From assembly GCF_030408355.1 (NCBI RefSeq), contig NZ_CP046606.1:2311454-2375453 (forward strand): a DNA stretch of 64,000 bases. Direction: 5' to 3'. Each line of letters starts with the position of its first letter. Position 1 is the stretch's first letter. The stretch comes from Corynebacterium afermentans subsp. afermentans (GTDB lineage: Bacteria; Actinomycetota; Actinomycetes; Mycobacteriales; Mycobacteriaceae). The notes below the pieces were generated by a model. The model searched no databases. It was not told the origin of the DNA and saw only the letters and a program-made list of their open reading frames with translations. A program made the translations under genes and the position numbers. Below, piece after piece: positions 6,946 to 25,448 of this stretch.

Positions 6946-9278
6946 CCCTCCGGCAGCAGCTCCGACCGCTCGCCGACGGTAGTCACCACCAGTGCGTCGC
7001 GGGCGCGGGAGGCCGCCACGTACAGCAGTGAGCGCTCGCGTTGGAGGGCGGCGCGGGCGTCCTCCTCTGACAGGTTCTTTAGGCGGAAGCGCAGCGGCAT
7101 GATCTCCTTGCCCACGCCCATGAGGATCACGTGGGTGAACTCCATGCCCTTGGCGCCGTGCATGGTCATCACACTGACCTGCTCGTGGGAGGCCAGTTCC
7201 GCATTTTTGGTCTGCACGGCGTCGATGCCGTGGTCTGCAAGTCCGGCCACCACGCGGGAGAGCTGCCCGCGGGTGCGGCACATCACGCCGACGCGGACCT
7301 CCTTGTGCGTGCCCTCCTCGGCCGCACGCTCGGCTTCCTCCAGCCACACGTTGATCAAGCCAGCGGCTACGGCAAATTCTTCGTCCTCGGACGCCGCGGT
7401 CACGATCATCGGCGCTGGGCCGGACCTCGCGGAGCGGTACTTCCCAACGGAATCCTTATCACCCTCCGCGTCCAGGAACTCCATGTCGCCGCCAACCAAG
7501 ATGCGCAGCGCATAATCCAGGTTCTCCTTGGTGGTGCGGTAGTTCAGCGTCAGGCGCTGGGATGCTCGCCCGCGGGTGGAGATGCCGAAGTGCGACAGGG
7601 TCAGCGGATGGCCGTAGATGCGCTGGTGGGAGTCCTCGGCCAAGAACACGTCGTTAGGCCCATGCGCCACGCACGCGCGCAGGAAGCGCCAGTGCCCGGC
7701 GTTGAAGTCTTGGGCCTCGTCGACCACCACGTGGTCGAACAGCGACCCGCCGCCGCGCTCGTAGCGCACGTTCAAAATCTCTGCACCCACGGCGGACATG
7801 GTGGGCCAGAACAGCTGGCCATCGATGGCTTGGGTCTGCATCAGCGACTCCAGCACGGCCCACACCTGCTTGCGCTGCTTGCGGTTCAGGGGCGTGCCGC
7901 GGCCGGTGCGGGCGACCTTCAGGTACTCCGCCAAAGACACAATCCCGTTGGCCAGCACCACGGTCTCGTACTCGGCCTGCAGGAACGCCTCATTAGCAAT
8001 CTCGCGCGGCAGCTCCTCCGGGGCGGACTCCACCGCGCCCTCCCACACCTGGCGCGCTGCCATGTCGGTGTACGGGCGCACGCGCGGGGCGGTGACGCCG
8101 AGCACGCGCCGGGTGGCCTCTTCCGTCTCCTCCACAGAGCCGAGGGAGACCACCTTGCGCACCACGGCATCGATGTTGTCCACCCACACGCCGTCCTCAC
8201 CAGGCTCGCCGGCCTCCGGGTAGGAGGGACTCAACGCGTTGAGCTGGGACTTCAACCCTTGCGCCAGACCCTTGGTAAACGTGGTCAGCAGTACGCGCGG
8301 GCCGGCCCCCGCAATATGCCCCGCGGCCAGGTTGTTCGCGCGGTGCACCGCCACCACCGTCTTGCCGGTACCAGCGCCGCCGAACACGCGCGCGGACCCG
8401 GAGTAGGAGTTCTCCGCCATACGGCGCTGCTCCGGGTGGATGTACACGCGCCATTGGTCGAAATTGCCGGACTCGATCACGCTGCGCAGGGACTCGGTCT
8501 CCACGTCGTCCACGTACGCGAACTCCAGCTCCGCAGCCGCCTGACGCAGGCCCGCCAGCAGGCGCGCATCCTCGGACTCGGCAGCCTCCGCAGCCGAAAC
8601 CTTGCGCAGCCCCAGCGACTCGCGCGTTTCCTCCACCGAGTACCCCGCCACCAGAGCGAGCACCGCTTCGTGCTCCCACTTCGGCCGGGAGGCAAGCAGC
8701 GCGTCCAGCCCGTCCTCGGACTCGAGTGCGAGCACCTGCTCAGTCAGCGCGGGATCAATGCCCAGCTCGTCCCACAGCATCGAAGGCGTGAGCCCTTCCA
8801 GCGCCTCACGGGGCGCGGGCGATGGCTTATCCGCGAGCTCCGCAACAACCCCCTGCTGCGCCGCCAGTTCACGCGCGGCCTGGGCTGCAGCTTCCGCCTT
8901 CGCCTGCGAGTCCTCGACAGGCTGAACGCTCTCAACCGCATCTTCCTTGATCAGCGTCGTAATACCGTTGATCGGGTTCACGTCCAGGCGCAGCCGCGCC
9001 GGGTCCAGCCGCTCAGCCTTGAGGTTGCCTTCGTCGTGCGAGTCCACGTCCACAAGCACGAAGTGGTGCGTGTCCTTGTCTTTGATCTCAAAGAGCACGG
9101 CGCGGAACTGGTCGTTGACGCGGCCGGTACGCACGCGCTTGTCCACGGCGTTCGTGAGCGTCTTGATCTTCAGCGACGGGTTCGTCGGGTCCACCGAGAG
9201 CTTCTGCAGGAAGTTCATCGTCGGCTTCATCAGCGCGCCGTCGATGTCCAACCCGCTGTACAGGCTAAACGTCACCAT
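6942..9278 (-). CDS. UvrD/Rep-type SF1 helicase with RelE-like N-terminal domain
   Basis: The 778-residue protein has two parts. Residues 1 to about 95 (FLQKLSVDP, RVNDQFRAVLFEI, HHFVLVDVDSHDEG) resemble the RelE/ParE fold found at the front of some helicases in defence loci. The rest is a superfamily 1 helicase: Walker A GGAGTGKT near 300, DEAQDF near 518, SVMTMHGAKGMEFTHVILMG near 705 and LLYVAASRARDALVV near 755. ATG 9278 is preceded by AAGGAG that overlaps the end of the upstream helicase gene (stop at 9285), so translation is probably coupled. Inference: the last gene of the minus-strand defence operon, acting on DNA ends or stalled phage DNA. Confidence 0.88.
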   Translation of the reverse strand: MVTFSLYSGLDIDGALMKPTMNFLQKLSVDPTNPSLKIKTLTNAVDKRVRTGRVNDQFRAVLFEIKDKDTHHFVLVDVDSHDEGNLKAERLDPARLRLDVNPINGITTLIKEDAVESVQPVEDSQAKAEAAAQAARELAAQQGVVAELADKPSPAPREALEGLTPSMLWDELGIDPALTEQVLALESEDGLDALLASRPKWEHEAVLALVAGYSVEETRESLGLRKVSAAEAAESEDARLLAGLRQAAAELEFAYVDDVETESLRSVIESGNFDQWRVYIHPEQRRMAENSYSGSARVFGGAGTGKTVVAVHRANNLAAGHIAGAGPRVLLTTFTKGLAQGLKSQLNALSPSYPEAGEPGEDGVWVDNIDAVVRKVVSLGSVEETEEATRRVLGVTAPRVRPYTDMAARQVWEGAVESAPEELPREIANEAFLQAEYETVVLANGIVSLAEYLKVARTGRGTPLNRKQRKQVWAVLESLMQTQAIDGQLFWPTMSAVGAEILNVRYERGGGSLFDHVVVDEAQDFNAGHWRFLRACVAHGPNDVFLAEDSHQRIYGHPLTLSHFGISTRGRASQRLTLNYRTTKENLDYALRILVGGDMEFLDAEGDKDSVGKYRSARSGPAPMIVTAASEDEEFAVAAGLINVWLEEAERAAEEGTHKEVRVGVMCRTRGQLSRVVAGLADHGIDAVQTKNAELASHEQVSVMTMHGAKGMEFTHVILMGVGKEIMPLRFRLKNLSEEDARAALQRERSLLYVAASRARDALVVTTVGERSELLPEG

Positions 9279-9284
9279 GGTGTT

Positions 9285-12200
9285 TTACTCCTTACCCAGC
9301 AGCGCCGCCGGGATCGTCTCTGGCGAGAGTGTATCGGGGTACAGCAGCGTCCAACCTTGCTCGCGAAGCTTGGCTTCGGCACCCGCGTAGGAGGCGTCCT
9401 GCTCAATCAACAGCGCAATGCGCAGCTCGGTCCAGGACACGGCGGTGGGGATGGAGCCGATTTCCTCGCCGATCTCCTCGGTCGGCGCCGCACCCGCGTC
9501 CACGAGGGTGCGCAGCGCGGCGGCCACGTCGGCTTCGTCCTCGAACTCCTCGATCGCCTCGGCCCACAACCCACTCACCGCGGTCTCGACGGCACTTTGC
9601 TTATCGACGACCTCCGGTTGCCCAACCATCTCCCCATCACCGACCGCAACAGTGACGGCGTTGTTGGCCAGCCACATGATGTTGGCGAAGCGCAGGAAGT
9701 CGCGCCAGTTGTCGGTGGTGATGGAGCCGGGTTCGGTGGCGTCGACGTGCAGGCGGCGCAGGGCCACTGCACCATCCGCCAGGGTTCCGTCGAAATGGAC
9801 CTCGCTGCGGAAGGTCAGGCGCCCACCACCCGGGATGCGTGAGGGGCGAAGCGACCCGCTCAGCATCCGCAGCAACGCCTCGTCCATGAGCGCGTACGAG
9901 GCCCTGTTCGGCTCGGCCAAGTAGGTCAGCAGCTGGGTGATGGGGGAGGCCTTGAGGAAAGCAATCTCGTTGTTGCCGATGCCCTCCATGTCACGCGCGC
10001 GTTCCTCGGCCTCCTCGCTCACCCACGTCGGTGCTGCGGCACCGACCTTCACCTCTTGCGCGAACCAGTCCAGGCCGGCATCAGTGACGTTCCACGGCAG
10101 GATCTGCTTATCGGTGTGGTGCAGGCTGTTGCGCTTTTGGATGTCCGAGGGGAAGCGGTAGTGCTGCGGGCTGAAGTGGAACGCGGCGCCGTCGGTGTAC
10201 ACGGCCACCGGCCGCACAAGCGGGTTACGGCGGTGCTGGAAGAGGAAGTCCGGGCGGGTGTAGCCGTAGTCGTGCTGTTCGCGCATGGACCACTCCTCAC
10301 CGGACGAGAACGTGATGTGCCACTCCACACCGCCGGCGTTGGCGATGTCCTTGACGGTGGCGTGGCGCGCCTCCAGGGTCTCGCGCAGCATCTCGCGGAA
10401 GCGCACCTCCAGGTTGGAGGACTGATCCAGCTGCGGCGCCTCCGTCTGCGGCTCCCACGTCACCTTTAGGGGATCGGTCTCTGCCGAGGGGTGGTCCTGG
10501 TTAGTCAGGATCGCACGCAGCGCGCGTTCTGCGGCGGCGCGGGAGGTAACGTCGATCTGCTGCCAGCGGGTGTACGGCAACAGGCACTCGGGGCAGGCGA
10601 GGCGCTCGTCATCCTGGCAGGTGCACTCCGCGACCTTCGTAAACGCCTTTTCCAACAGCCGGCGAACGTCTTCGGGCGAGGCGAACTGGGAGAGGTAACC
10701 GGTGCCGCCGGGGACGTTGTCGTGCATGAGCAGCGCCTCGACGGTGCCGCCGCGGTCATCCGGCACGCGGACGGTAACCACACCCAGGTGGTCCGGATCG
10801 CCGCCGAGCACCTCCTTGAAGCCGAGCTTGATCGCGGCAGTCAACGACGGGATGGTCGCCTTGTCGCCCGCAGTGAGCATCACCGGCACGTGCAGCAGCA
10901 CGCCCTGGGTCTGCAAAGTGCGAGACAGCGCGACGGTGACGGACTCCTCCTCGCGGGCGTTGCGCTTCGGGCACCAGGGGCGGTGGTCCCACTTGGAGTT
11001 CGTGCCCTTCTGCGAGTCCAGGTGCCCGCAGTAGTTGCAGACGGTGAACATGGGCGCATCGATCTCAGTGTTGGCGAAGATGCGCTTCATTGCGGGCCCG
11101 CGGCCCAGGTTGAACCAGCTCAAGTTCACGTACCGCAGGTACTCCGCGCCGAAGCCTTGGGAGAGGAACCATTTACCACCGTGACCGCCTTCCGGCACGG
11201 AGAAGCTCAGGGCGGTGTGGTAGTTCAGTTCGCGGCGGTCGTCGCGTGAGTCGTCGATAAGCGCATTGCCCCGATCCACCTCCGCTGACACGCGGCGCAT
11301 GCGCACCGTATCCAGCACCTGGCCGTTGTCGGCGAAGGTGTCCGCACTGCAGGAGGGGCACGCCCCGGCTGTGGCCCCTTTGCGCACGGGCTCGGCGTAG
11401 GAGCACTCGGGGCACAGGCGCCACCGCTCGATGTCCGCGCCGTTGAAGCCGACCTCGACCGCGTCCACGGTGGCGGCGATGCCGCGGGCGTAGAAGGTGT
11501 TGCCCGGCGCGAGCTCGTGAAGCGCGGAGGACACACCGCGGGAGAGTTCGAAGGAGTCCGGGTCGATCTGCATGGTGGTCGGGTTGAGCTGGGAGACCAC
11601 CACGGACAGCTCCACCGCATCATCCAATAACGTGAAGTTGGGCAGCAGCCCGTAGCGCTCCATGGAGCTGATCCAGTGTTCGCCGAGCAGGATGTCGTTG
11701 AGGTCCTTGGCAGTGCGGTGGTACGCCGCCTTCGTGCTGCGCTTGTCGCGCTCCAGCTCCGCGTCGGCGTTTTCGGTGCCCGCGTTCGGGTCCACCTTGG
11801 CATCCAGGGCACTTAGCTGGTCTTGGAGGGTGCTCAGCCGCGTGGTGAACGCCTTGACTTCGCCGTCCCAGAGTCTGCGGGTGCGCTCCATCTCGCCCGT
11901 GAGCGAGTCGGGTCCCTGCCCGCACGCCCATGCGCGCACCCCGTCCACGGTGGTCGCGTCCACGGACCCTGCCACCGTGGCCAAAAACGCGTCCACGCGG
12001 TCCTCCACGCCGGCCGCGATGTCCTCGCCGAGCGCCTCTACCAGCGAGACCTTGCGGGTGCTGAATACGTCGCGCGAATACTTCACATCCAGCCCGCTGT
12101 TGCGGAACGACAATGTGTCCACCAAGTACGCCGTGGTCTGCCGGCGCAGGATCTCGGTGGCGGAGAGGAACGCCGCCGGCGGCACCACGGTGCCCGCGAT

Positions 12201-15200
12201 CACAGACAGCGGCTGGTTCAGCTTCGGCAGCATGCTCCCGCGTCCCTGCACGAATGCGAGCACGAGCGAGTTGCCGGTGAGGCGCCCGGCGCGACCCACA
12301 CGCTGCACGTACGAGGACACGGTGGTGGGCAGCGAGGCGAGCATGACCGTGGACAGGTCGCCGATGTCGATGCCCATCTCCAACGTCGGCGTTGCCACCA
12401 GAACGTTCGGCGCGTTCGGAGCCTCAGCGCCGCCGCGGAACGCCCGCTCGAGCGCAAGGCGTTCCTCCTTCGGGATCAACCCGGTGTGCTCGCGCGCCAC
12501 CACCGCGCGCGGGTTGGTGGAGGTGTACAGCTGCGAGTAGTAGTTCGCCTCGATCGGCTCGTCTTCGAGCTCGCCGGGGCAGCCGGGCGTGGGGCACGGC
12601 AGGCCCGCGAGCAGCGAGCGCAGTTGCCTATCGACGCCCAACGGTGCATGACACACCCCACACTGCAACATCGCCGGTTCACCTTCACCAGCCACCACCA
12701 CCTGTTGCGAGGCAATGGCGTACATCGTGCCGCCGGTGTCCGTGGACACGGCCATGAGCACCTCGCGCCGGGCGAGCTCGCGGAACACGTTGGTGAGCAC
12801 CGTCGCCGCGTCGTGGGTGCCGATCCCCAGCACCTTGGAGGTCCACCGCGCGTAGCGCCCGCGCGGGCTGCCCAGCGGGGTCACGCCGCGGTCTTTGTCA
12901 TCTACCGCCGGCCCGGAGCGCGGGAACTCCGGCGCGCCGCCCTTGGCAAACCGGCGCATGCCGCGCGCCTTGGCGTAGCGGTTATGCAGGCGCCACGTGT
13001 TGCCGTCGTCCTGCAGGTAGGACTTGAACATTGGCGTGTACACGCCGCCGCGTGCGCGCACCTGCTCCAACAGCCCGCGCATCCAGCGCAGCCGCACTTG
13101 CGGGTCGGCGGCGTCCACCACCTCGAACAGGCCGCTGTCGATGCTGCGCAGCGCCTCTTCCGCCGCCTCGAGCAGCACTGCGTCATCCGCATCCACCCGC
13201 GGTGTGAGTGCACCCGTGGACACCAGGGAACGCGGCAGGTCCGCCTGCTGGCCGAACTCGAGCGCCGCATCCAGCTCAAGGCGCTCCAGCACCGCCGCGG
13301 TGGCCGCGCGCCGGGACGCATCGTCAGCGTCCTTCTCCCAGAACGCGCGGAACGTGGGCGTCTCCGCGATCTCCTGGGGCAGCAGCTCAAACCGCGCGCG
13401 CAATGGGTCCTCAGCGGCGTCCGCGCGCTCGAGGATCCGCAGTGGCAGCTGCGCCACGGAGACCTCACCTTGTACTCCATTGTCGGAGCTTGCGACGACG
13501 CTGCGCATCAACGCGCGGATGCCAAACGCGCGCGCCCTGGCCTGCACAAACCCCGCACGGTGCGCCGCGTCCTGCACGGAGTCCGCGAACACGAGGGTCT
13601 TCTTCGCCTCCTGCTCCAGCTGCGGCATGCCGAACAGGTTGGACAGCCCCACCGACAGCAGCGTGGCCACACGCGAACCGATGTAGCGGATAGTGTCCGT
13701 CTCCCCGCACGACGGGCACACCTGCTCGCGGGCATACTCGCCGGCGTCGAGCCCGGCATAGGTGATCACGGGCACCGACAGGCCCTCCGCCCGCTCCCGC
13801 TCGTCCGGCTCGCTCGCGGACAGCGTGCGGGTCTGCGTGTGGAACCACATCAGGGCCCGCTTGCCCTCGTCGTCGCCGAACTCCTTCATCTCCTTGCCGT
13901 CTTTGAGCGCCCGGCGGTATTCATTGGTGGCATCGATGAGGGGGCGCACGAGCTCAGGCTTATCCACGCTCGCTTTGCGGATCTCCCCGCCACCAAGCAC
14001 CACCGCGTCCGTGCCGGGCTCCAACGCCGTCATCCACCCGGCGCGCCCGCACTCGCGGCAGTAGATGGCTGGCAGCCACACCGCAGCGTCGTCCCCGCCG
14101 AGCTGGCCGTCATCCGCGAAGCGAAACACCTCGCCGTCCTCAGTCGGCGTCACCGTGCGCTCGATGCGGGAGACCTCCCGCAGCCACAGGTGCGTTTCCA
14201 CACCCGGCAAGCGCTTGCCACCGAAGCCGTACTTCTCGCCCGCCAGCGCCCGCACGTGCGCGACCGCGGTGAGCAGGTGGGTGACAAACTCGCGCGCTGG
14301 GCCCTCCTTGAGGCTGCGCACCACAATCTCGCCAAGTACCGCCGCCGGCACCGTCGTTTCCTTCTCGCCTTCGCGCTGGATAAGCGGTGCCGCGTTCTTC
14401 GCCGCCTCCAGCAGCGCGCGGGTCAGCGGGTGCGCCGCGTACGCCGCGATGATCTCTTCCAGCGTCTCGCCGGCGTCCCACAGCTGCGTCCGGAAGACCT
14501 CAAGCACCACGTCCGCGTAGTCGCGGCCCGAGGCATCGTTTGCAATCGTGCTGTTGATCTGCTTGATCTGGTCGATGTCCGGCAGCGGAGTAGGGGAGTG
14601 GCTCCCGAAAGTCTCCGCGATCTCGTCGACCCACTGCTCGTACGTCAGCGTGCGCTCGCCGACCAGCGCGTCCGCGCTGAACTGCTCCCCGAAAATCGTG
14701 CCCGCGAAGTCCAGTACCTTCTGCGTGTCGTCTTTGCCGCCAAGCGTTGCCGACGTCGCCACCGGCGTGACCCGACCCAGCGGATTGGATGCGTACTCGC
14801 CGAGGAATCCCTCCTGCTGGTGTGCTTTAAGCATCAACCCCAACCGACGAAGCAGCAGTGCCACGTCCGTGCCCTGGGCGCCGTCGTACGTGTGGAACTC
14901 ATCCAGCACCAGGTACTGCAACGATGTTGCGGAGCGCTTCCAGATCTCCCGATCCTCTTCACGCAACAACAGCTGGTCCAGCATCTTGTAGTTGGTAAGC
15001 AAGATGTCTGGCGGATCCGCGCGCATCTGGTCACGGTCAGTGATCAGCGAATCCCGCGTGACCTTGCGGACGGTGCCCTTCGACTCACCCGTGTAGATAC
15101 CCGCCGTCACCCCAGCCAACGCCGGCTCGCTGGTGAGCAGCTTAGCCAGGCGGTCCGCCTGGTCGTTCGCCAGCGCGTTCATGGGGTACAGCAACAGTGC

Positions 15201-15611
15201 CTTGGTGCCGCGTTGCCCCTCAGCGCGAGCCCGCGCCGCGTGGTCCAGCACCGGGTAGAGGAACGACTCCGTTTTACCGGAGCCAGTACCCGTGATCACC
15301 AGCGTCGGCTCTGGGCGACGAGCACCCTGATCATCCCGGCTGCGCAAACGCCGGAACGCCTCCGCCTGATGGTGGTACGGGGTGAACCATTCCGGCATCC
15401 AATCCAGAATCCCGTCCCACCCGATCGCCCGCGCGTACGGCAACCGCGTGCGCACGTACGGCCCGTGGAACATGCCCCGCTCCGTGTCCTCCAAAAACGC
15501 CTTCAGCGCGTTAGACGTCTCCGGATTCGCAAGCGAAAACGCAGTGGCCAGATACTCAGAGACGCCCCCGAGGACGTGCTCCGATGCGTGAACGGGGATG
15601 AGGGTAGACAC
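9285..15611 (-). CDS. Giant DEAD/DEAH helicase with DUF1998 and probable Vsr-like nuclease domain
   Basis: The 2108-residue protein is the largest of the island. Seen: Walker A TGTGSGKT at 107-114, DEFH at 237-240, a helicase C domain with TLEMGIDIGDLSTVMLASLP and YVQRVGRAGR near 1075-1110, several zinc-ribbon cysteine pairs (near 514, 630, 985, 1400, 1525), a DUF1998 block near 1600-1700 (HDNVPGGTGYL, CPECLLPY), and near 1780-1815 RPDFLFQ followed by VAVYTDG, the pattern of Vsr/DUF559 PD-(D/E)XK nucleases. Known: helicase plus DUF1998 occurs as DruE of Druantia and as separate DrmA and DrmB in DISARM. GTG start. A 417-bp copy of its 5' end lies at 18448-18864. Confidence 0.88.
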   Translation of the reverse strand: MSTLIPVHASEHVLGGVSEYLATAFSLANPETSNALKAFLEDTERGMFHGPYVRTRLPYARAIGWDGILDWMPEWFTPYHHQAEAFRRLRSRDDQGARRPEPTLVITGTGSGKTESFLYPVLDHAARARAEGQRGTKALLLYPMNALANDQADRLAKLLTSEPALAGVTAGIYTGESKGTVRKVTRDSLITDRDQMRADPPDILLTNYKMLDQLLLREEDREIWKRSATSLQYLVLDEFHTYDGAQGTDVALLLRRLGLMLKAHQQEGFLGEYASNPLGRVTPVATSATLGGKDDTQKVLDFAGTIFGEQFSADALVGERTLTYEQWVDEIAETFGSHSPTPLPDIDQIKQINSTIANDASGRDYADVVLEVFRTQLWDAGETLEEIIAAYAAHPLTRALLEAAKNAAPLIQREGEKETTVPAAVLGEIVVRSLKEGPAREFVTHLLTAVAHVRALAGEKYGFGGKRLPGVETHLWLREVSRIERTVTPTEDGEVFRFADDGQLGGDDAAVWLPAIYCRECGRAGWMTALEPGTDAVVLGGGEIRKASVDKPELVRPLIDATNEYRRALKDGKEMKEFGDDEGKRALMWFHTQTRTLSASEPDERERAEGLSVPVITYAGLDAGEYAREQVCPSCGETDTIRYIGSRVATLLSVGLSNLFGMPQLEQEAKKTLVFADSVQDAAHRAGFVQARARAFGIRALMRSVVASSDNGVQGEVSVAQLPLRILERADAAEDPLRARFELLPQEIAETPTFRAFWEKDADDASRRAATAAVLERLELDAALEFGQQADLPRSLVSTGALTPRVDADDAVLLEAAEEALRSIDSGLFEVVDAADPQVRLRWMRGLLEQVRARGGVYTPMFKSYLQDDGNTWRLHNRYAKARGMRRFAKGGAPEFPRSGPAVDDKDRGVTPLGSPRGRYARWTSKVLGIGTHDAATVLTNVFRELARREVLMAVSTDTGGTMYAIASQQVVVAGEGEPAMLQCGVCHAPLGVDRQLRSLLAGLPCPTPGCPGELEDEPIEANYYSQLYTSTNPRAVVAREHTGLIPKEERLALERAFRGGAEAPNAPNVLVATPTLEMGIDIGDLSTVMLASLPTTVSSYVQRVGRAGRLTGNSLVLAFVQGRGSMLPKLNQPLSVIAGTVVPPAAFLSATEILRRQTTAYLVDTLSFRNSGLDVKYSRDVFSTRKVSLVEALGEDIAAGVEDRVDAFLATVAGSVDATTVDGVRAWACGQGPDSLTGEMERTRRLWDGEVKAFTTRLSTLQDQLSALDAKVDPNAGTENADAELERDKRSTKAAYHRTAKDLNDILLGEHWISSMERYGLLPNFTLLDDAVELSVVVSQLNPTTMQIDPDSFELSRGVSSALHELAPGNTFYARGIAATVDAVEVGFNGADIERWRLCPECSYAEPVRKGATAGACPSCSADTFADNGQVLDTVRMRRVSAEVDRGNALIDDSRDDRRELNYHTALSFSVPEGGHGGKWFLSQGFGAEYLRYVNLSWFNLGRGPAMKRIFANTEIDAPMFTVCNYCGHLDSQKGTNSKWDHRPWCPKRNAREEESVTVALSRTLQTQGVLLHVPVMLTAGDKATIPSLTAAIKLGFKEVLGGDPDHLGVVTVRVPDDRGGTVEALLMHDNVPGGTGYLSQFASPEDVRRLLEKAFTKVAECTCQDDERLACPECLLPYTRWQQIDVTSRAAAERALRAILTNQDHPSAETDPLKVTWEPQTEAPQLDQSSNLEVRFREMLRETLEARHATVKDIANAGGVEWHITFSSGEEWSMREQHDYGYTRPDFLFQHRRNPLVRPVAVYTDGAAFHFSPQHYRFPSDIQKRNSLHHTDKQILPWNVTDAGLDWFAQEVKVGAAAPTWVSEEAEERARDMEGIGNNEIAFLKASPITQLLTYLAEPNRASYALMDEALLRMLSGSLRPSRIPGGGRLTFRSEVHFDGTLADGAVALRRLHVDATEPGSITTDNWRDFLRFANIMWLANNAVTVAVGDGEMVGQPEVVDKQSAVETAVSGLWAEAIEEFEDEADVAAALRTLVDAGAAPTEEIGEEIGSIPTAVSWTELRIALLIEQDASYAGAEAKLREQGWTLLYPDTLSPETIPAALLGKE

Positions 15612-15648
15612 GAATATTTACCCTAGTCAGGATACTCCGGTCTAGCTC

Positions 15649-16566
15649 TCAGAAGAGCGTTAGTGTGCCCAGAGTCGTTCCTTCAGAGTCAAACTTTAAT
15701 GATTCCTTCTTGACGTAACCGAAACTATCCAAGGTGCGTTCATGAACGACAATCCAAGAGACCCGGTCGCCGATGAACTTGCCGAGACCGTTGAAATCTT
15801 GCATCGAAACAGAAACAATCTGTTTCCTCCCTTTGGGAGTAGGGTCGTTCCGCAGCGTAACCCGGTATGAATTATTTTCATCCAGCGCTAGCTCAGTTAT
15901 AAATCCTTGGACTGTTTCCTTTTCAGTCTCGTTTTCAATCCTCTGTTCGAGTTCCTCTAGGTACCTAAAACTTTGTTCGCTGACACGACTAAAAGAGGTA
16001 CGACCGCTGGACGAAAACCAAGCGAAGTCAGCTACTAAATCCTTGGTCTTCAGCTCATGGTTCAGCTTTTTTAGACTTTTTATCGACTCTGCCCATTCAC
16101 GAAGCGATCGGCGCCCTTCCAACGCATTCAAGAGCTTGAAGGCATTCTCCATCGCAGCTGCGTTGGGAGTACTACGAACCTTAACGGTCTCGTCTTCTAG
16201 CACGTTGTGGCTTTCAGTGTTAGGCGCCGAAGGCTCGAATACCATGATGGTACTTCCAGGCTCCGTGCGAACCATCTTCAAATCGACCTTGAACGGTTTC
16301 TCTGCGAAAAAAACCCTTATCGCTTTCTGAACGCTTTCAAGATCCTTATCAATGCCCGCAACTTCCGCAGCATCGCCACTGAGATGGACTTTTAACTTCT
16401 CCCCGAAAGAGGGATTTATCCCATAAGCCCCTCTAAGCATCTTAAAAGTTTGTTCCCTGGTAAGGGCCTCATCTTCCAGAGGGGCCAAAGCAGCTGTGTC
16501 GTTAAGCCAATTTGGATCGGATTCGTCGAGGTGCGAGATCAGCCGTTTACGAATTTCCGGATTCAT
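15649..16566 (-). CDS. Unknown protein, accessory module 2 of the defence island
   Basis: I do not recognise this 305-residue protein. It is soluble and charged, with no signal peptide or membrane segment. Visible motifs are FFAEKPFKVDLKMVRTEPG near 90-110, a helical stretch with ELKTKDLVADFAWFSSSGRT near 190, a glutamate-rich coiled-coil-like part (RYLEELEQRIENETEKETVQ) near 225, and a beta-rich end (WIVVHERTLDSFGYVKKESL). It overlaps the upstream nucleotidyltransferase-like gene by 4 bases, so the two are probably made together. The giant helicase starts 37 bases downstream. The G+C content is lower than that of the neighbouring helicase, which suggests separate acquisition. Confidence 0.75.
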   Translation of the reverse strand: MNPEIRKRLISHLDESDPNWLNDTAALAPLEDEALTREQTFKMLRGAYGINPSFGEKLKVHLSGDAAEVAGIDKDLESVQKAIRVFFAEKPFKVDLKMVRTEPGSTIMVFEPSAPNTESHNVLEDETVKVRSTPNAAAMENAFKLLNALEGRRSLREWAESIKSLKKLNHELKTKDLVADFAWFSSSGRTSFSRVSEQSFRYLEELEQRIENETEKETVQGFITELALDENNSYRVTLRNDPTPKGRKQIVSVSMQDFNGLGKFIGDRVSWIVVHERTLDSFGYVKKESLKFDSEGTTLGTLTLF

Positions 16567-17156
16567 AGGATCACCTCGACATATCCTCTCCGTGTAGCAG
16601 CCGATGACTCAGTAGGGGCATCAGTGTGGCTGTCGCGCAGACGCTGCCACCACTCATCCCATGCTCCTCTTTCCAACAGGTAATTGCGCTCGGCATTCCC
16701 GAGCTCACTCAAGTGGAAAACAGACTTTACCGGATAGTAATCAACCCGTATAGGAGATATTCCAGAAAAATTTGCATCCTTTGACAATGAATCACGCGCA
16801 AAAGCTTTGTTGCGTACCCACCCGCTACCTTTCTTGCCTTTTAGCTTCTCCAATGCGGGGCCGTTGAGGAAGACGGTCACGTCGAGGTTGCGGGGCGCTA
16901 TCTTGTCACTTATGAAACTCCCGCCCAACCACACGTACTTAATGATCTCCTCATCATCGTCCAGCCAGCCAGAATCGATTGCTTTTTGTTCGATATCTGC
17001 AAAGTGTGCGAGATAGTTCTGAAACTTTCCCCACAATGCTAACCGTGCTGCCCGGTCGGGAAATTTGTCCACCCACTCTTGCCGGACGTCATCTAGGCAC
17101 ATCCTGACTCTCCCCGGCATGGGGGCTTGATACGTATTCTGCGGAGCATTCATCAA
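16563..17156 (-). CDS. Nucleotidyltransferase-fold protein (DUF6932-like)
   Basis: The 197-residue product contains KYVWLGGSFISDKIAPRNLD followed by VTVFLNG near residues 70-95. Known: GGS plus a spaced D-V pair is the active-site pattern of the nucleotidyltransferase fold used by MNT-type toxins or antitoxins and by DUF6932 proteins. A later R-VDYYPV could supply the third acidic residue. It overlaps the 305-residue gene by 4 bases, which suggests a two-gene unit, perhaps of toxin-antitoxin or effector-regulator type; this is inference. ATG 17156 is followed by a second ATG. Confidence 0.6.
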   Translation of the reverse strand: MMNAPQNTYQAPMPGRVRMCLDDVRQEWVDKFPDRAARLALWGKFQNYLAHFADIEQKAIDSGWLDDDEEIIKYVWLGGSFISDKIAPRNLDVTVFLNGPALEKLKGKKGSGWVRNKAFARDSLSKDANFSGISPIRVDYYPVKSVFHLSELGNAERNYLLERGAWDEWWQRLRDSHTDAPTESSAATRRGYVEVIL

Positions 17157-17289
17157 TGGTGAGCTTACAAACTTAGAGGGGGAGAGTAACCGATTAGGAC
17201 GATCTGCGAAAAGAGACGGATACGCGCTTTAGCGTGGTACCCCACAACCACCTCCGACACCACTTGCTTTTTGCAGACCAAGTTTTTCC

Positions 17290-18021
17290 CTACCATTTTG
17301 CGTCAATCACTCGTGGAGAGAACCCCGCCGGAGGCGTGACTGAGAATCCGAGCTCCTCCAGCGACTTTGCCGCGGCTTCCGGGTAGTCCCTTGCTGCGGC
17401 AGCCGTTTGCTTGAACAACCATTCTTGCCGTCGTCGCAGCAAGATCGGCTCCCAGCCCGGTTTGCCCCGAAACCCGCACTCGGCGATAACGAAGTAGAGG
17501 AATTCTTCGAGCGACGGGCGAAACCGTCTGTCACCCACCGGTAAGTGCAGTTCTTCCAGCCGTCCTTTCTTCCTCGGGTTTCCAGACTTCTCCTGGAAGT
17601 TCTGCATTAGGGCTGGGCTCAGCAATCCAGTGACTCCCGAGTAATGAATGTGGGCGCATGGAGCGCTGGTAAATCCCCGTTCGTATTCAAACCGAATGCC
17701 TGGGGACGTAGCTACCCGCAGCTCGAATTTACTTCTTTCCACGGCGAGGAACGTGCCGGTGGAATCGGAAGTTAATTCGTAGCGGACGATGACGAGGAAT
17801 AGCTGGCTGTAGTCTTGGCTATCAACTTCGCTTTCAAGCTGACCGGCACCGTGGATAACCGGGGCATCAAATTCACCGACAACGATGTTCGTATCGGCGT
17901 TAAGCCACGCCCCTGTTTCGATATCCCTTTCAGGTGCGAGTGGGAGAGCATCTATAAGCGTGCTTCTCACCGCATCGAGAAACAGCTCAGCCTCGTCACG
18001 CAGATTCAAGTTGTCCCTCAC
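17290..18021 (-). CDS. Unknown protein, accessory module 2
   Basis: The 243-residue protein is not recognised. It begins at a GTG with an acidic helical stretch (NLNLRDEAELFLDAVRSTLI), followed by a beta-rich central region (YSQLFLVIVRYELTSDSTG, HIHYSGVTGLLS) and a helical C-terminus rich in arginine and alanine (LLRRRQEWLFKQTAAAARD). No signal peptide, membrane span or catalytic motif is evident. It overlaps the upstream 76-residue gene by 26 bases, so the two are translationally linked. The pair precedes the nucleotidyltransferase-like pair by 134 bases. Confidence 0.7.
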   Translation of the reverse strand: MRDNLNLRDEAELFLDAVRSTLIDALPLAPERDIETGAWLNADTNIVVGEFDAPVIHGAGQLESEVDSQDYSQLFLVIVRYELTSDSTGTFLAVERSKFELRVATSPGIRFEYERGFTSAPCAHIHYSGVTGLLSPALMQNFQEKSGNPRKKGRLEELHLPVGDRRFRPSLEEFLYFVIAECGFRGKPGWEPILLRRRQEWLFKQTAAAARDYPEAAAKSLEELGFSVTPPAGFSPRVIDAKW

Positions 18022-18226
18022 CCAACAGCATCAATACGACGCTTAAATCGTCGTACAAGGCCCGCTCGGACTTATCTAGCATGCCCGAGTGGGCGAGCGT
18101 ACGTAGTTCTTCAATGCTCGCAGAGGGCTGGCGTGTAGACCTGCGGAGAGCAGTGAGATAGTCTCGCTTCTTCTCCCAGAGTTCCTTGTTGTTGGTGGTC
18201 TTAATTTCAATTGCCGTGTCAATCAC
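17996..18226 (-). CDS. Small unknown protein, accessory module 2
   Basis: The 76-residue product starts at GTG 18226 (MIDTAIEIKTTNNKELWEKK) and is predicted mostly helical and charged, ending EGQLESA. No family recognised. A small, acidic or charged protein encoded just upstream of and overlapping a larger one is a layout often seen for antitoxin-like or chaperone-like partners, but that is only inference here. A strong inverted repeat at 18285-18322 lies directly upstream and marks the edge of the module. Confidence 0.6.
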   Translation of the reverse strand: MIDTAIEIKTTNNKELWEKKRDYLTALRRSTRQPSASIEELRTLAHSGMLDKSERALYDDLSVVLMLLGEGQLESA

Positions 18227-18390: not shown

Positions 18391-18447
18391 TTAACCCATC
18401 CCCTCAAACCACGCATACGCCTCCCGCATATCCGCCTCCCGTGCCCT
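18391..18447 (-). pseudogene. Diverged copy of the methyltransferase 3' end
   Basis: Seen: the minus strand reads AREADMREAYAWFEGMG and a TAA stop at 18391. The intact methyltransferase at 20891 ends [18 protein letters not shown]. At DNA level a 25-base core, beginning ACGCCTCCCGCA on the + strand, differs at one position. Only the last 18 or so codons remain. Because the copy is diverged, it probably derives from another allele of the same system rather than from a recent duplication. Confidence 0.7.
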
Positions 18448-18864
18448 GGCAGCGCCTTGGTGCCGCGTTGCCCCTCAGCGCGAGCCCGCGCCGCGTGGTC
18501 CAGCACCGGGTAGAGGAACGACTCCGTTTTACCGGAGCCAGTACCCGTGATCACCAGCGTCGGCTCTGGGCGACGAGCACCCTGATCATCCCGGCTGCGC
18601 AAACGCCGGAACGCCTCCGCCTGATGGTGGTACGGGGTGAACCATTCCGGCATCCAATCCAGAATCCCGTCCCACCCGATCGCGCGCATACGGCAACCGC
18701 GTACGCACATACGGGCCGCGGAACATGCCCCGCTCCGTGTCCTCCAAAAACGCCTTCAGCGCGTTAGACGTCTCCGGATTCGCAAGCGAAAACGCAGTGG
18801 CCAGATACTCAGAGACGCCCCCGAGGACGTGCTCCGATGCGTGAACGGGGATGAGGGTAGACAC
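18448..18864 (-). pseudogene. Truncated, frameshifted copy of the 5' end of the giant helicase gene
   Basis: Seen: about 417 bases match 15195-15611 at roughly 98%, from the GTG start (18864) through the Walker A codons and on to GTKAL. The copy keeps MSTLIPVHASEHVLGGVSEY but lacks two bases near 18685 (CCGATCGCGCGCATACGG against CCGATCGCCCGCGCGTACGG), which shifts the frame after about 60 codons. Most substitutions lie in a 45-base patch around that site. Homology stops exactly at the start codon. The copy is fused downstream to a remnant of the methyltransferase end. Confidence 0.9.
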
Positions 18865-18915: not shown

Positions 18916-20661
18916 TCACCTATACGATGCATCTTCGTCCACGTTTATCACCCTAGACGCTGCGGATGCCACATCTGCACAGAATGAAAGCACAGCTTCA
19001 TTCTCATATACCTTGCTATCAATAGCCTTCCTGGCCCAAAGGTTTTTATCGCCAGAATCGAAAAGGGACCGATCAAAGCCCTCGAGCTCTCCAACTGGTA
19101 AAAGTAAGATCCCAATACTTGCCAAGCTCTTCAGCAGCTCCTCGACGAGACGTCGGATTTCCTCATCCTTATGGTCAGCCTTTATATCCTTGGCTATTCT
19201 GCTTTTGAGCTTGCCCTCGCTATTTTGTTTCGAAATCCCTTCGAATTCGGCTGAGTAGACTTCCCGAAAACGATCCCAAATCGCTGCTGCCAAGGAATCA
19301 ACCTCCGAATACTTGTGCCGCCCCATCACCGAAACCGTATTCAACAGGCGCTTCTTTTCAGATATCAGGTCTAGATCGCCCACGATGAGGGTGGGAGTCC
19401 GGAGCCGTCGCAATAGATCTGCGATGGAGGCGAAGTTACCGTTCCCATTTGTGGGGATGAAGATTATCGAATCGTTTAGTGCATGAGCCTGGGGAACGGT
19501 GGAACCAGACTCATAATTATCGAATGCTTCCTCGAAGAAAAGCGCATCGTTCTCATTTTCAACCAGAACAGCGACCGCTGAGAAGAGGGACTCAAGGATC
19601 GGTGTGTAGCGGATCCGACTTTTTGCTCTAATGTCTTCGAAAGCATCAGGCTGCACGTTCGTCGACGAGTATTGATTGACCACGTCCCCCTTGTACGAAA
19701 GTCTGTGGACAACCAGCTGTTTAGAGCCTTCTCGGGCCATCCCACTTAGTAGATTCCTGTCGTGAGTTGCGCAAACAATTTGCCGCTTTTCCTCCTGGCA
19801 TACTCTTTGAAGCACCTGCCCCAGCCGATATGCTTGTGGTGGATGCAGAAACGCCTCCGGTTCATCTATCAGCACTACGCTCCGCGAGTCCGTGTAGAGG
19901 CGCATCAATAGCCCAACTACATTCCGCATTCCGAGGCCTTGCTGATCGATTGTTCTCGCACTCTTAAGGAACTCAATTACATTTACCGAATTAGCGTCGG
20001 CGATCGAGGGCATTTCCTGCGGACGAGGCCCAAGGAAAAACGTCAGTTTCCCTTCGTGAAAATGGAAGTGGATTTCCTCATTGAAGATGTATTTGAAGGC
20101 CTCTCGCACCGCGTCATAAGCATCCTTTTGATCCCGGAGCTTTACGATCGCATTTCCGTAGTCCTCGAGCGATTTCCGGTCAGACTCAGTTATTCGACTC
20201 AAAGGCTCATCGAATCGAACAAACGTCTCGATAAACACACCAAAACGGTTAAACGGGCTATCCCATCTCGAAAAGTTTTCCTTATTTATCAAAGGGGAAC
20301 TTCCGTAGACTGAATAGGGTAGTTCAGGATCGTAGTGAGTCCCGGCATCCTTGAAGTTACTTTCAGCGACCTGTCGTAGATAACTTCGCAAATCGCCCGT
20401 CGGCCAGCGGACCTCTACTGATTTAATCAGACCACGGTCGATACTTGCGGACGCAATTGATTTCCCATAGAGAATCGCGCGCAGTTGCTTGATGAAATAT
20501 GACTTACCCGAGTTATTGGGGCCAACCAAAGCGAGGATTGAATTTGCTTCAAGACCAATCTGCTCTTCGGATTTCAAATGGATTGTTTGAAGAGTCGGTT
20601 GCTCTGGGTTTTGGACTGGTTTACCTGCCCAGTCGGAATCGCTCCCAATCACAGTTGTCAC
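18916..20661 (-). CDS. OLD-family ATPase with TOPRIM nuclease domain (GajA-like)
   Basis: The 581-residue protein has an ABC-type ATPase domain: Walker A GPNNSGKS near 47-54, a signature-like QQGLGMRNVVG near 245, Walker B SVVLIDEPEAFLHP near 263-276 and CATHD near 300. A TOPRIM domain follows: VAVLVENENDALFF near 370 supplies the acidic start, and VGDLDLI near 430 the D-x-D pair. Known: OLD proteins are DNA nucleases of phage defence; GajA of Gabija has the same plan and size and works with a UvrD helicase, and a UvrD gene ends this operon. GTG start at 20661 behind GGATGGGG. The gene forms accessory module 1 between the methyltransferase and the helicase fragment. Confidence 0.88.
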   Translation of the reverse strand: MTTVIGSDSDWAGKPVQNPEQPTLQTIHLKSEEQIGLEANSILALVGPNNSGKSYFIKQLRAILYGKSIASASIDRGLIKSVEVRWPTGDLRSYLRQVAESNFKDAGTHYDPELPYSVYGSSPLINKENFSRWDSPFNRFGVFIETFVRFDEPLSRITESDRKSLEDYGNAIVKLRDQKDAYDAVREAFKYIFNEEIHFHFHEGKLTFFLGPRPQEMPSIADANSVNVIEFLKSARTIDQQGLGMRNVVGLLMRLYTDSRSVVLIDEPEAFLHPPQAYRLGQVLQRVCQEEKRQIVCATHDRNLLSGMAREGSKQLVVHRLSYKGDVVNQYSSTNVQPDAFEDIRAKSRIRYTPILESLFSAVAVLVENENDALFFEEAFDNYESGSTVPQAHALNDSIIFIPTNGNGNFASIADLLRRLRTPTLIVGDLDLISEKKRLLNTVSVMGRHKYSEVDSLAAAIWDRFREVYSAEFEGISKQNSEGKLKSRIAKDIKADHKDEEIRRLVEELLKSLASIGILLLPVGELEGFDRSLFDSGDKNLWARKAIDSKVYENEAVLSFCADVASAASRVINVDEDASYR

Positions 20662-20890: not shown

Positions 20891-23800
20891 CTAGTCTCCC
20901 ATCCGCGCAAACTTCTTATACGCCTCCCGCAAATCCGCCTCCCGGTCCAGCTGCCTAAACGGATACTCGTAGACGTACTCCACACCCGACTGCGGATGCG
21001 TCCACGTCCGATCCGCCACCGACAATTCCGCACCGTCCTTCAACTTCGCATCCGCCTTCACAATCTCCTTCGGCACCTTCCGACCATTCGCATCAAACCG
21101 ATCCTCCTGGTCATAACGCCGCATCACCGGAAACTGCGTCCGGTAAATCATGCACAACTCATCCGCCGTCACACCCAACGACAACGCCACAATCGCATCA
21201 ATCTCCACCTGCGCAGCACGCCGCTCCTCATCCTTACGTAAAGGCGTATCGACGCCCCAAGGTTCCCCCACAACCTCCTCCCACAACGGGGCATAGGCCT
21301 CGGTGAGGCAGTTGAGGCGGAGGTAACTACGTAACAAGTGAATGTAACCCGAGAATTTTCGTCCGAAGACTAATCCTTCCACAACAGCTGGTCGGAGATG
21401 ACTCACACCTGAAGCACGAACGAGAAAATCCACGACGAGACTCGATAGCGTCGCTCCCACGAGAACAGTGTCCGCAACGTCTTCCGTGCTGGCTGCGGAA
21501 CCAACGGTATCTACGTGGGTCGCCCCAGGAGGAACTAGCGAGGGATAGGTCGTCCGGTACCCCGTTGTCGCTGCCATAACCCGCCACCCGACACGGTAAA
21601 AGTCTCGCGACGAAACGGTAGCACCATCCAACACCCAGCGGGTGTAATCAGCGTCGTATCTCGGCTGGTTCGTCCGATCCGGCTGGTATGCGGTCGCTGG
21701 AATGAAGCTAGCGGTCATCGATTCGAGGTCGATCTCAGACCAATCCTTATTACTCTTTAGACTGGGGTTCGGCTGCTTGACCATTGGGGTCGAGACGCCG
21801 AGGTGCGGTCCCTGAAGAATGACATCGTTCCACGAGGTAGGATGCGCCCAGCCGGTATCAAAATATCCCGCCTTCTTGTCAGCAGATTCGTGCCAGCCCG
21901 GGGAAAAATTCAGTTTGAGCTCGCGAATACGCGGTGCAGCTGCAAGTTTCTCGAGCACGGCCGCAGCTTCAGTGTTAACGGTGTAAACCATGCGGGACTC
22001 GACAGGTGGCACGGCGGTGTCCTCCAGAACCGAATGCCACACACCGAGTGCATTCTCATCGACAACTTGAATTCGGTCGCGGTGGGGGCGGACATCCCAA
22101 TTGCCACTATCATCCTTTAGACCAGGCAGATTACCGGAGCCATCATGGGTCAAAGAGTCGGAAATGGTCGAAGAGTGATAAACAGATGTTGCTTGTTGGA
22201 ATGAGGGCTTGTCCCGCATCGAACCGTACACGTGGATTCCGTACGTCACCAGATTATGCACGTCGAACAACCGGAGCTCATTGATGAACTGCCAATGCCT
22301 CCGTAACCGCAGGTACGCTCCTCGGCGCAGGGGAGCGGCCTTCTTCTCGGTGAAGTGTGATTCTGGGTGTATTAGCGAGGTAATGCCCTCATCGAATGAA
22401 TTACCCCAGGTTCGTTCCATGAATCCTCGGTAGAGATCCGGCTGCTGGCCAGCTAGGTGGGGATAACGAGTGACGTCACCAAGAACCGCTGAAGTTGCTA
22501 ACGCCTCGGCTAAACCGCGATATACAATCTCACGGGTCGGTTGATCGTGGTTCCACTGTTCCCGCCGCGATTTCTTTTCAGCCTGCGTCGGTTTGTGCGC
22601 GAGGGAAAACCACGCATCCGATTCGGAATAGAGCGCGTCCAAGTCAACGGTGGGCCGCACCCACGGCGGGTTGCCTACCTGGAGGTCGAACCCACCACGA
22701 GCGAAAACAGCGGCAAAATCCAGGTCCCAGTGGAAGAAGCCCTGCTCGGCGGCCACCGTGCGGACCGTGTTCAGCCACGGGTGCCTCTCCAAGACGATGT
22801 CGATCTTGCGTGCACCAGACAGCTCAATCTCGGTGCGCTCGAGCTGAACCAGTTCATCCCATCTGTCGGCGCGGCCAAGCTGTCCCTGCGCAGCATCTCG
22901 TGCGGTGATCTCAGTGCCCAAGATGTCGGTCAGCGTAGCGATCCACTCGTCGAAGTCAGGCAGCTCGTCGGTGGCGGTAAGGGGCCAGAAGGTCAGGGCG
23001 TTCCAGGCGTCCATGGCAAGGCGGAGACGCAGGTAGGCACCTTCGGCGTCGTGAAGCAGTTCCCGCTCGATCTGCTCGCGGCGCACGTTCTTGGCGGTGT
23101 GCTCGGTCTCGCGGCCCCAGAGGTCGATGTCGCGGCGGATCTGTTCTTCTGCGATGCGCATCTTCGACAGCGTGATGGCCCACAGGGACTCCACGCGGGC
23201 GGCGAGGTTGGTCAGCTTCTTCGTCTGCTCCTTAGTGGGTGCCTTGCCGGTGACGGAGCGTCTCCACGCCTTCATGGCGTTGATCTCGTCCTTGGCCAAG
23301 GTCTTGAGGTCCTTCGCGTCCGCAGCAGCTCCCCAGGTGGAGGAGGGGAGCAGGAACTGGTGGATGCGGCCAGCGGCGTTTATGTCCTTGGTCTCGCCGG
23401 CATCGATAGCCTCGGCCAGGTTCTGCACCGGCTCTCGGCGTGGCACAGAGCTGAGCCACTCGCGCTTCTTCAGCTGCGCGACTGCGTAGGTGGACCGCAG
23501 CGCGCCGATGAGCGAGTTGCCGCGGCGCAGGTGCAGGCCGAACCACGGGGCCTTGAGCTGGCTGGTCATGGTGTCCAGCCACAGGGAGATCTCGGCGAGC
23601 TCCACGGCGGTGGGGTTGAGGTCCACGCCGTAGACCTGGTGCAGAGCAATGTGGGCCTTGACCTGCTGCAGCTCAACAGCGCGGGTCTCGGGGTCGACCT
23701 GGGTGTCTAGCTCGTCCTCGCGCAGCTTCAGGTACAGCTCCGCCAGCTGACGCACGGCTTCCACGGCGAAGGCGCCGGAGCCCATGGCGGGCTCGCAGAT

Positions 23801-25444
23801 GGTCAGACTGAGCACGTCATCGGATGTTTCGATGCGTCCTTCTTCCTGGAGCACCTCGATGGCCTGGCCGACGGTGAACTCGGTGAGCACCTGCGGGGTG
23901 TAGAAGGATGCGGAGCGCTCGCGGTCGCGGCTGGACTGACGGAACACGAAGGAGCCGGCCGGGTGCTCGCGGCGCACCTTGGAGGTGCCGCCTTCCTCCA
24001 TCTGCTTGGTCTCCATGACAAAGCTGTCCTGCGGCACGGTGTCCGCGGCGTGGGTGGGCAGCACCCAGGAGCCCTTGGAGGCGTCGCCCTTCGGCGCGAC
24101 CTCGTACAGGTCTTCCTGGGCGATGAAGCCGTGGTAGGACATCAGGCCCTCGTAGACCTGGCCGAGCTCGGTCACGCCCAGGGTGGCGTACGAGATGAAG
24201 CCGCGGTCCTTGCCGGCGGAAACCTTGGACAGCAGCAGGTTCTGCAGGACGTGGGTGAGGGCGTCGTTGGAGAGCTTGACTTCGTCGATGAGCGAGGTGG
24301 CCTCGCGCTTGAACAGGTCCGCCTCCAGGTTGCGAAAGGTCAGGCCCTCGTTCTGGGCGTCTTGGTCGGCACCAGCGACTTCGTGCGGCTCGTGGCCGTC
24401 GTTGACCTGGGTGAACAGCACCTGCAATGAGTCGTACAGGTGGGTACCCCGGCGCGCCTTGTCGGTCACGGGCGGGTTAAGGATCTGGTCGCGGAGGCGG
24501 TCCAGGCCGTAGCCCTCCACGTACTCCGGGGCGCCGGTGGGCAGGATGGCCAGCTCCGGGGAGGCCTCGGCAAACAGGAGGAACAGGATCCGGTAGAGGT
24601 AACGCAGGGACTGGTGCGCGAGCTCGTTGCCGTCGACTCCGTCGAGCGAGAGGTTCTGGTCGAGGACGTCGTTGCCGATGATCTCGATGGACTCGCGCAC
24701 CGCGTCGCGCAGGTCCCCGGAAACCTTCACGGCGTGCTGCTGGGATTCCTCGCGGGTCTCGGCCCACCAGGTGGTGCCGTCCGCTGCGCGCTCAAGGTTC
24801 TCACGCGCGAGGATCACCGCGACGCGCTCGAGCTCGCCGGCCTTCTTGGTGTCGTTGCGCTCCACCGCCAGCTGCAGGCTCACGGCGAGGTAGCGCCCGA
24901 GCGGCCAAGACTCGCGCTCAGCGACGACTGCCCACGCGCCGGCGAGCACCACAATGAACTCCGGTGGTTCGGCGGCGAGGAACAAGTCGCCGACGAGCTT
25001 GGACACCTTCGCGTTCTCGGGCTTCTTGCCCTCGGCGGCGATGCCACCGGTGATCGGGAGCGTGGTCAGGTCCTCTTCGGTGGTGTCCTCGTTCGGTTCG
25101 GCACTGATCACCACCAGGGTGCCGGCGTTGCCCACCCAGCCCTGGTAGGTGAACGTCTCGCCTGCGCGGGTGTAGGTCTGCGCTGTGGGTGCGCCGTAGC
25201 TGAATGCGGTGCGCACCAGGGCGTCGGTAGGCGATTGCGTCGCAAAGGCTTGCTGGAGCTCACCGCGCGCGGCCTGGAAGCGTTTGATGGGGGAGGGGGT
25301 GTTAGATTCCTCCTCCAACTGTGCCCACTCCTTGGTGCGGTTTTTCACGCGTTTGGTGAAGGATTCGCCCTTGGTTTCGTCAGTGGTGAAGTAGTGGTCA
25401 CTGATCCACTCATCAACGTTGATGATTGAGTCGTAGGTAGCCAT
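20891..25444 (-). CDS. Eco57I/PglX-like N6-adenine DNA methyltransferase
   Basis: The 1517-residue protein is a long class I adenine methyltransferase. Seen: the SAM-binding motif [15 protein letters not shown] near residue 550, a long helical insert, and the catalytic NPPW in [12 protein letters not shown] near 925; the N-terminal 500 residues are helical and the C-terminal 350 probably hold the target-recognition part. Known: PglX of BREX and DrmMI of DISARM class 1 share this plan. The chosen ATG at 25444 has AAGGAG nine bases before it; a longer frame to 25507 would overlap the SNF2 gene. The SNF2 stop lies 4 bases upstream, so the two are coupled. No separate restriction subunit is visible. 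Confidence 0.88.
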
Positions 25445-25448
25445 TGAT

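Follow-up and report, generated by a model that had tools for sequence, protein, structure and literature searches.

The window, by which we mean the whole 64,000-nt stretch of DNA analyzed here, contains a four-gene operon on the minus strand that runs from position 28322 down to 6942. The first gene, armA (25449..28322), encodes a SNF2/RapA-type helicase of the DrmD/BrxHII-like kind (Pfam SNF2-rel_dom and Helicase_C; PADLOC DrmD, 7.7e-96, and BrxHI/HII, 9.1e-59). It is followed by armB (20891..25507), which encodes a 1538-aa PglX/DrmMI/type IIG-like N6 DNA methyltransferase with the motif NPPW at residue 946, by armC (9285..15611), which encodes a 2108-aa YprA-family giant helicase with DEAD, Helicase_C and MrfA Zn-binding domains, and by armD (6942..9278), which encodes a UvrD/GajB-like helicase with a conserved N-terminal extension. 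Relatives of the operon keep the order armA-armB-armC-armD once a gap for cargo is allowed. Named relatives of armB itself are found mainly in Corynebacterium and other Actinomycetota; a sequence search of the PDB with ArmB gave no match, and a plasmid search with ArmC returned 179 records, all below 60% identity.

We considered which known defense system this gene set represents. The MrfA Zn-binding domain PF09369, which we take to be the renamed DUF1998, is fused within armC (Pfam, 1591-1677), and in PADLOC the protein scores nearer Druantia than DISARM (DruE3, 268 bits, vs DrmA, 67 bits); its likeness to a Druantia-like YprA helicase with an OB-CON-DUF1998 fusion was judged by this domain and these scores. 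DISARM class 1 has drmC, which encodes a PLD protein. We rejected an assignment to this class, as separate drmB (DUF1998) and drmC (PLD) genes are absent, the Zn-binding domain is part of armC, and none of nine proteins scanned against Pfam has a PLD domain. The gene set and order match published ARMADA Type II (Bell et al., 2025 preprint; PMC12458937), with a BrxHII/RapA-like helicase, an NPPW-bearing PglX-like methyltransferase, a YprA-family helicase nearer Druantia than DISARM and a GajB-like helicase in the same strict order on one strand. The GajB-like helicase of ARMADA Type II is described there as having a RelE-like domain at its N-terminus; the armD extension is conserved over 122 aligned residues, has no Pfam match, and gave no RelE in a PDB sequence search. 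Based on gene content, we predict that the operon is an ARMADA Type II-like anti-phage operon, and anti-phage activity has been reported for an E. coli ARMADA Type II system (PMC12458937).

The armB-armC junction of the window is occupied by three cargo modules, and torn pieces of the two flanking genes lie between them, all on the minus strand. The first module is a single gene for a 581-aa OLD-family ATPase-TOPRIM protein (18916..20661; Pfam AAA_21 and OLD-like_TOPRIM; PADLOC Old, 9.3e-25). Next comes a 415-nt copy of the armC 5' end (18450..18864), which begins exactly at the GTG start codon and aligns to armC (15195..15611) over 417 columns at 98.08% identity, with 6 mismatches and 2 gap positions. 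Beyond it lies a 49-nt remnant of an armB 3' end that includes the stop codon (18391..18439), 45 nt of which match the end of the window's own armB at 84%. Both copies, and an identity of about 98% for the first, had been recognized in a preliminary description of this DNA, which listed the remnant next after the helicase copy; the two are indeed close, but a 10-nt relic of armC codons about 246-248 (18440..18449) intervenes. The same description grouped the four genes that follow into one block of unknown function. All four are present, but a second armB-end vestige, 21 nt long (17240..17260), splits them into a module of orf76 (17996..18226; a small protein, family FAM1, in five genomes) and orf243 (17290..18021; family FAM2, no Pfam or PADLOC match), and a module of orf197 (16563..17156; DUF6932, PDC-M63A-like) and the overlapping orf305 (15649..16566), which is weakly PDC-M63B-like (E 0.0075).

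Comparison with other genomes (G numbers denote genomes of the genus, L numbers the loci compared) indicates where these pieces came from. A chance match of the 49-nt remnant is excluded because the remnant and the next 140 nt align without gaps to the intact armB end of G183 and the cargo that follows it (87.8% of 189 nt); as the preliminary description had proposed, the remnant is a diverged end from another allele, namely one bearing the orf76-orf243 cargo. The 21-nt vestige belongs to a joint between orf243 and armB codon ~1410 that in G095, G187, G183 and G236 runs on into a long armB end. The 10-nt relic is the trace of an older armC-armB joint: it matches G095, where a helicase fragment extends to codons about 246-248 before joining the same armB end, and the joint in G187 lies at the same helicase position. 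An assembly artefact was rejected as unlikely, since this joint recurs in the separate assemblies of G095 and G187. Judged by its distribution over the window and two other species, the helicase-armB joint is old, and the armC copy of the window would descend from it, having lost an internal piece.

Both of the alleles that the preliminary description predicted can be seen in other genomes. G183 has an intact armB that leads into the orf76-orf243 cargo found behind the remnant in the window, and in G152 a relative of OLD (72%) is followed immediately by the armC start, with the same short upstream sequence as in the window. Among 242 genus genomes this is the only close relative of OLD (next best 41%), and it lies in the same slot; across the order, no close relative other than the window was found. 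At 93% or more, orf243 occurs only in G095, G183, G187 and G236, each time beside armB ends (next 69%), and the ARMADA system of G236 has decayed. The single relative of orf305 (39%) is in G034. Several genomes thus carry different cargo at this exact site, and the array of OLD with orf76, orf243, orf197 and orf305 is repeated in no other of the 242. The idea that two alleles of one system, each with its own cargo, recombined in tandem therefore holds in essence, but it has to be extended to at least three alleles and at least two events, given that three genomes have the helicase-armB joint in common and that the window contains a third vestige of armB. When weak matches are included, relatives of orf243 extend to 63 of the 242 genomes and to other genera; in several of these loci a small gene lies just upstream, and none of the seven contexts viewed places the gene beside armB.

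The cargo elsewhere in the slot is varied, and its families recur across species in new contexts. A 529-residue protein with a weak Csx1/Csm6 match follows the intact armB in G079 and an armB-end copy in G187, which also carries a CHAT protein. The cargo set of G095 ends in an FRG-domain PDC-S15 protein of a family common with G052, and a DUF2326/PDC-M68 protein in G134 belongs to a family common with G135. Other genomes carry PD-Lambda-5 (G061), ApeA-like proteins, one with a HEPN match (G210), a STAND-like PDC-S59 protein (G183) or Schlafen/Nhi-type proteins (G236), and the relatives further contribute transposases, a PIN protein and a glutamate symporter. Among 28 cargo proteins chosen by hand from the open reading frames, small ones being left out, 12 have a PADLOC match at E up to 0.001, some of them to generic models (ATPase, helicase, methylase).

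How often the junction is filled was measured at 75 loci drawn from GTDB, 59 of which could be scored between armB and armC. The gap exceeds 600 bp in 19 of these (18 as scored, plus L034, which carries cargo and was mis-scored through fragments), as against one of 71 between armA and armB (L098, 806 bp) and none of 45 between armC and armD, where one value (L069) is meaningless owing to a second UvrD match. Within the genus, some armB match is present in 68 of 242 genomes; 53 places were examined with weak partial armB matches left out, and 9 of them have no match to the armC start. The 44 genomes with both genes comprise 27 in which the slot is empty (2-112 bp), 12 with cargo and 5 with inverted partial copies of armB, the last classed by their armB copies alone. 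Stacking is not universal: cargo is present and stacked remnants are absent in G111, G134 and G135. Likewise, when 20 gaps were searched with the gene ends of their own locus, clear matches were found only in L043 (window clade), L072 (armC start) and L099 (inverted armB), with weak ones in L074 and L090. The L072 match, in the distant genus represented by Actinomyces dentalis, is an armC-start fragment (residues 1-49, about 10080-10224) within the cargo gap, a torn end of the same kind. In G110 (L129), the matches to armC and armD lie about 4.5 kb apart, which is rare at that junction.

The armB gene consists of a variable region, which we take to be the target-recognition region, followed by conserved last 140 codons, and the divergence of these parts bears on how alleles move. 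In seven of 11 relatives (G095, G079, G187, G152, G061, G183 and G210), the fraction of 4-fold sites that differ from the window is 0.03-0.18 over the last 140 codons, compared with 0.13-0.47 over codons 1-900 and 0.50-0.75 over codons 900-1396. G111 (0.36), G153 (0.33) and G052 (0.76, intact armB) are exceptions, and G134, in which the frame is broken, lies outside the measurement. On account of this drop, the armB end is, as far as synonymous divergence can tell, homogenized between species, which is what a recombination arm should look like. No comparable dip occurs in the 5' end of armC, and this measure thus does not mark a right-hand crossover. The cargo itself gives a similar picture, with the orf76-orf243 module 93-95% identical in four other genomes and armC and armD of the window and G183 only 69-78% identical. 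Taken together, the loci compared show a slot that is mostly empty in relatives and holds other cargo elsewhere, and their alignments show, at the level of sequence, that species have exchanged both cargo alleles and the final 140 codons of armB.

The same data bear on another origin of the stacked ends, a tandem duplication in one lineage in which microhomology doubled the segment from the armB end through the cargo to the armC start, giving two slots whose cargoes then diverged. A joint of armC codon ~248 to armB codon ~1523, common to three genomes, is what such an event would leave behind, and in G095 and G061 the closest sequence to the armB-end copies is the genome's own gene (98% and up to 95%, respectively). 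However, the copy in G210 matches G152 at 96% but its own armB at only 89%, both copies in G183 are slightly nearer to G210 (92%) than to their own (90%), and those of G187 and G079 tie between the own and a foreign allele. Moreover, the cargo on either side of the joint is unrelated, which requires at least some entry of foreign alleles. We therefore regard a duplication within one lineage as possible, if on balance unlikely. The helicase copy is 99.6-100% identical to the window's own armC except for a 45-nt patch at nt 146-190 (88%), yet its identity to the fragments with the same joint in G095 and G187 is about 91%; its 98% identity is probably a product of gene conversion and, if so, does not date the event.

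The points at which the armB-end copies begin are not scattered. Of nine distinct joints, with positions read by eye and the four copies with the orf243 joint counted once, seven enter armB within 17 nt of one another, and their upstream flanks are unrelated. Uniform draws over 350 nt reached such clustering in 0 of 200,000 trials, and over 150 nt at a frequency of 0.000255. Three copies had been left out beforehand: the G052 copy, which is cut by its own armB end, the 49-nt remnant of the window, whose joint is with armC, and one copy in G187 at 70%. In the window, the clustered joints correspond to a G-rich, Shine-Dalgarno (SD)-like stretch (21264..21282, minus strand; about codons 1409-1415) that is the sole match to its pattern there. 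Among the loci compared, the G-rich form is seen in the window clade (with one change in G079) and in L041, and most other relatives are without it. The G-rich site may be a recurrent break site.

Two readings of this cluster need to be weighed. The first is that a fixed break or recombination site near armB codon 1410 repeatedly takes up foreign DNA, the incoming copy restoring the armB 3' end and the old end being displaced behind the cargo, much as elements insert in the 3' ends of genes. The cluster, with its unrelated flanks, would be explained, as would the arrangement in window-clade genomes with an intact armB, where the displaced ends are found downstream of that gene, in direct orientation. 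Yet the joints differ in position by as much as about 16 nt, no common motif is apparent by eye on the cargo side, the armC-armB joint and two of the nine joints fall elsewhere, and Pfam recognized transposases but no tyrosine or serine site-specific recombinase among 30 chosen cargo proteins. We consider such site-directed capture improbable. An integrase-carrying element lodged in a gene 3' end was rejected, given the lack of a recombinase in the scanned proteins and joints that are inexact and not att-like. Equally speculative, in our estimation, is a related scenario in which breakage or recombination at the G-rich site (codons about 1409-1414) keeps the slot 'hot', and repair from a foreign armB captures cargo without an integrase, changing specificity and accessory genes together while a leaderless promoter insulates armC.

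The second reading is that the armB 3' copies are functional mini-genes, with an internal SD sequence and start codon, retained alongside each cargo to supply, for instance, the C-terminal domain on its own. In the window clade, a GGAGG-like stretch is indeed followed in frame by ATG or GTG within armB codons 1409-1413, and the joints cluster near it. But by eye only about three of the seven clustered joints keep both the SD sequence and the start codon, and several copies contain stops or frameshifts or are truncated. The ratio pN/pS against the nearest intact gene is 0.05-0.57 for the seven usable copies (G061b and G236a being left out), overlapping the range for intact pairs (0.14-0.40), and the lowest value belongs to a truncated copy. 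A coding function for these pieces therefore seems to us very unlikely.

If DNA enters and leaves the middle of the operon, the question arises how armC and armD continue to be transcribed. A TAnnnT sequence 6-8 nt before a start codon marks leaderless promoters in actinobacteria. The window has a predicted -10 element of this form, TAGGGT (15620..15625, minus strand), 8 nt before the armC start, which constitutes a putative leaderless promoter. Across 43 genomes (G013 was dropped by the filter), TAnnnT occurs 6-8 nt before armC in 10 of the 12 that carry cargo, G134 and G135 being those without it, in none of 26 with an empty slot and in none of the 5 with inverted copies; the background, counted along the operon strand in the part of the window that was scanned, is 0.8% per position. 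We accordingly predict a leaderless armC promoter in the cargo-bearing clade. In several genomes, cargo open reading frames point against the operon, which fits a separate promoter for armC.

We suggest that the locus is very probably an ARMADA Type II-like operon whose armB-armC junction serves as an internal docking slot for accessory genes, often for defense, with the cargo exchanged by homologous recombination and modules occasionally stacked by one-sided joins. The cargo would be swapped by homologous recombination in the armB 3' end to one side and in armC, or sequence downstream of it, to the other, which would at times bring along a new methyltransferase target-recognition region. Where only one end is homologous and the other illegitimate, the new block would come to lie stacked beside the old one, with the torn 3' end of armB or 5' end of armC between them; such a join could arise by homology-facilitated illegitimate recombination, through a Campbell-type circle or by tandem duplication. 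These repeats could then recombine with the intact genes by gene conversion, and precise loss of a module should be possible. The -10-like element is placed such that, with a leaderless armC transcript, DNA could enter or leave without silencing armC-armD. The cargo, for its part, probably adds layers of defense to the core system or guards it.

Genes embedded in restriction operons are already known. In Type I restriction-modification loci, prrC lies within ecoprrI and has a role in defense (PMC12707154), and the rlo and mlo genes lie within hsd of Campylobacter jejuni (PMC5183652, citing Miller et al., 2005); BREX loci, which are PglX-type systems, contain auxiliary nucleases as extra effectors (PMC12839542). 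These cases have other core systems, and the relevant sections of the Type I reports mention neither stacked ends of the armB/armC kind nor a leaderless promoter, just as those of the BREX report do not mention a single swap slot with partial copies of its borders. For ARMADA Type II itself a strict gene order is described, and the word 'accessory' is absent from the main text (PMC12458937), whereas the junction in the window holds variable cargo and stacked ends. A search of open-licence papers found no description of a stacked, insulated slot in ARMADA. Homology-facilitated illegitimate recombination, with one homologous and one illegitimate end, would yield such partial duplications; it is described as a laboratory mechanism in the pertinent part of PMC3240628, and in the window its operation is suggested by structure.

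The arrangement suggests how a multi-gene defense operon could act as a docking station without recognizable mobile-element machinery. The conserved methyltransferase end would provide a homology arm, the private promoter would insulate the downstream half, and the torn ends would record the order of events. Turnover of methylation specificity and of accessory defense genes may be linked in a single recombination event. Several cargo proteins have no family match, and the slot should be a good hunting ground for new defense genes.

Some related loci differ in ways that deserve mention. Of 5426 E. coli genomes, 518 match the armB-armC junction of plasmid p4M18F, and in 509 the match covers 80% or more of the query; each of the 60 matches viewed is one contiguous piece, and the slot looks empty. 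In 59 of these 60, compared with L156 (upstream of about 4216), the armB match starts only about 560-600 nt before armC, a pattern which suggests that the region upstream has been swapped and the 3' end conserved. Inverted partial copies of the armB 3' part lie beside armB in G041, G045, G127, G165 and G217 (L121, L119, L123, L124 and L122, respectively) and in L099, L105 and L093. The inverted matches have 71-93% identity, and in some cases the copies include the variable region; they are possibly old or slow cassettes for inversion of specificity. At the other end of the operon, a gene at 5989-6945 of the window, convergent with armD, matches the PADLOC candidate PDC-S14 (2.1e-86), and G079 and G052 likewise have relatives of it near armD, the one in G079 being split into two pieces.
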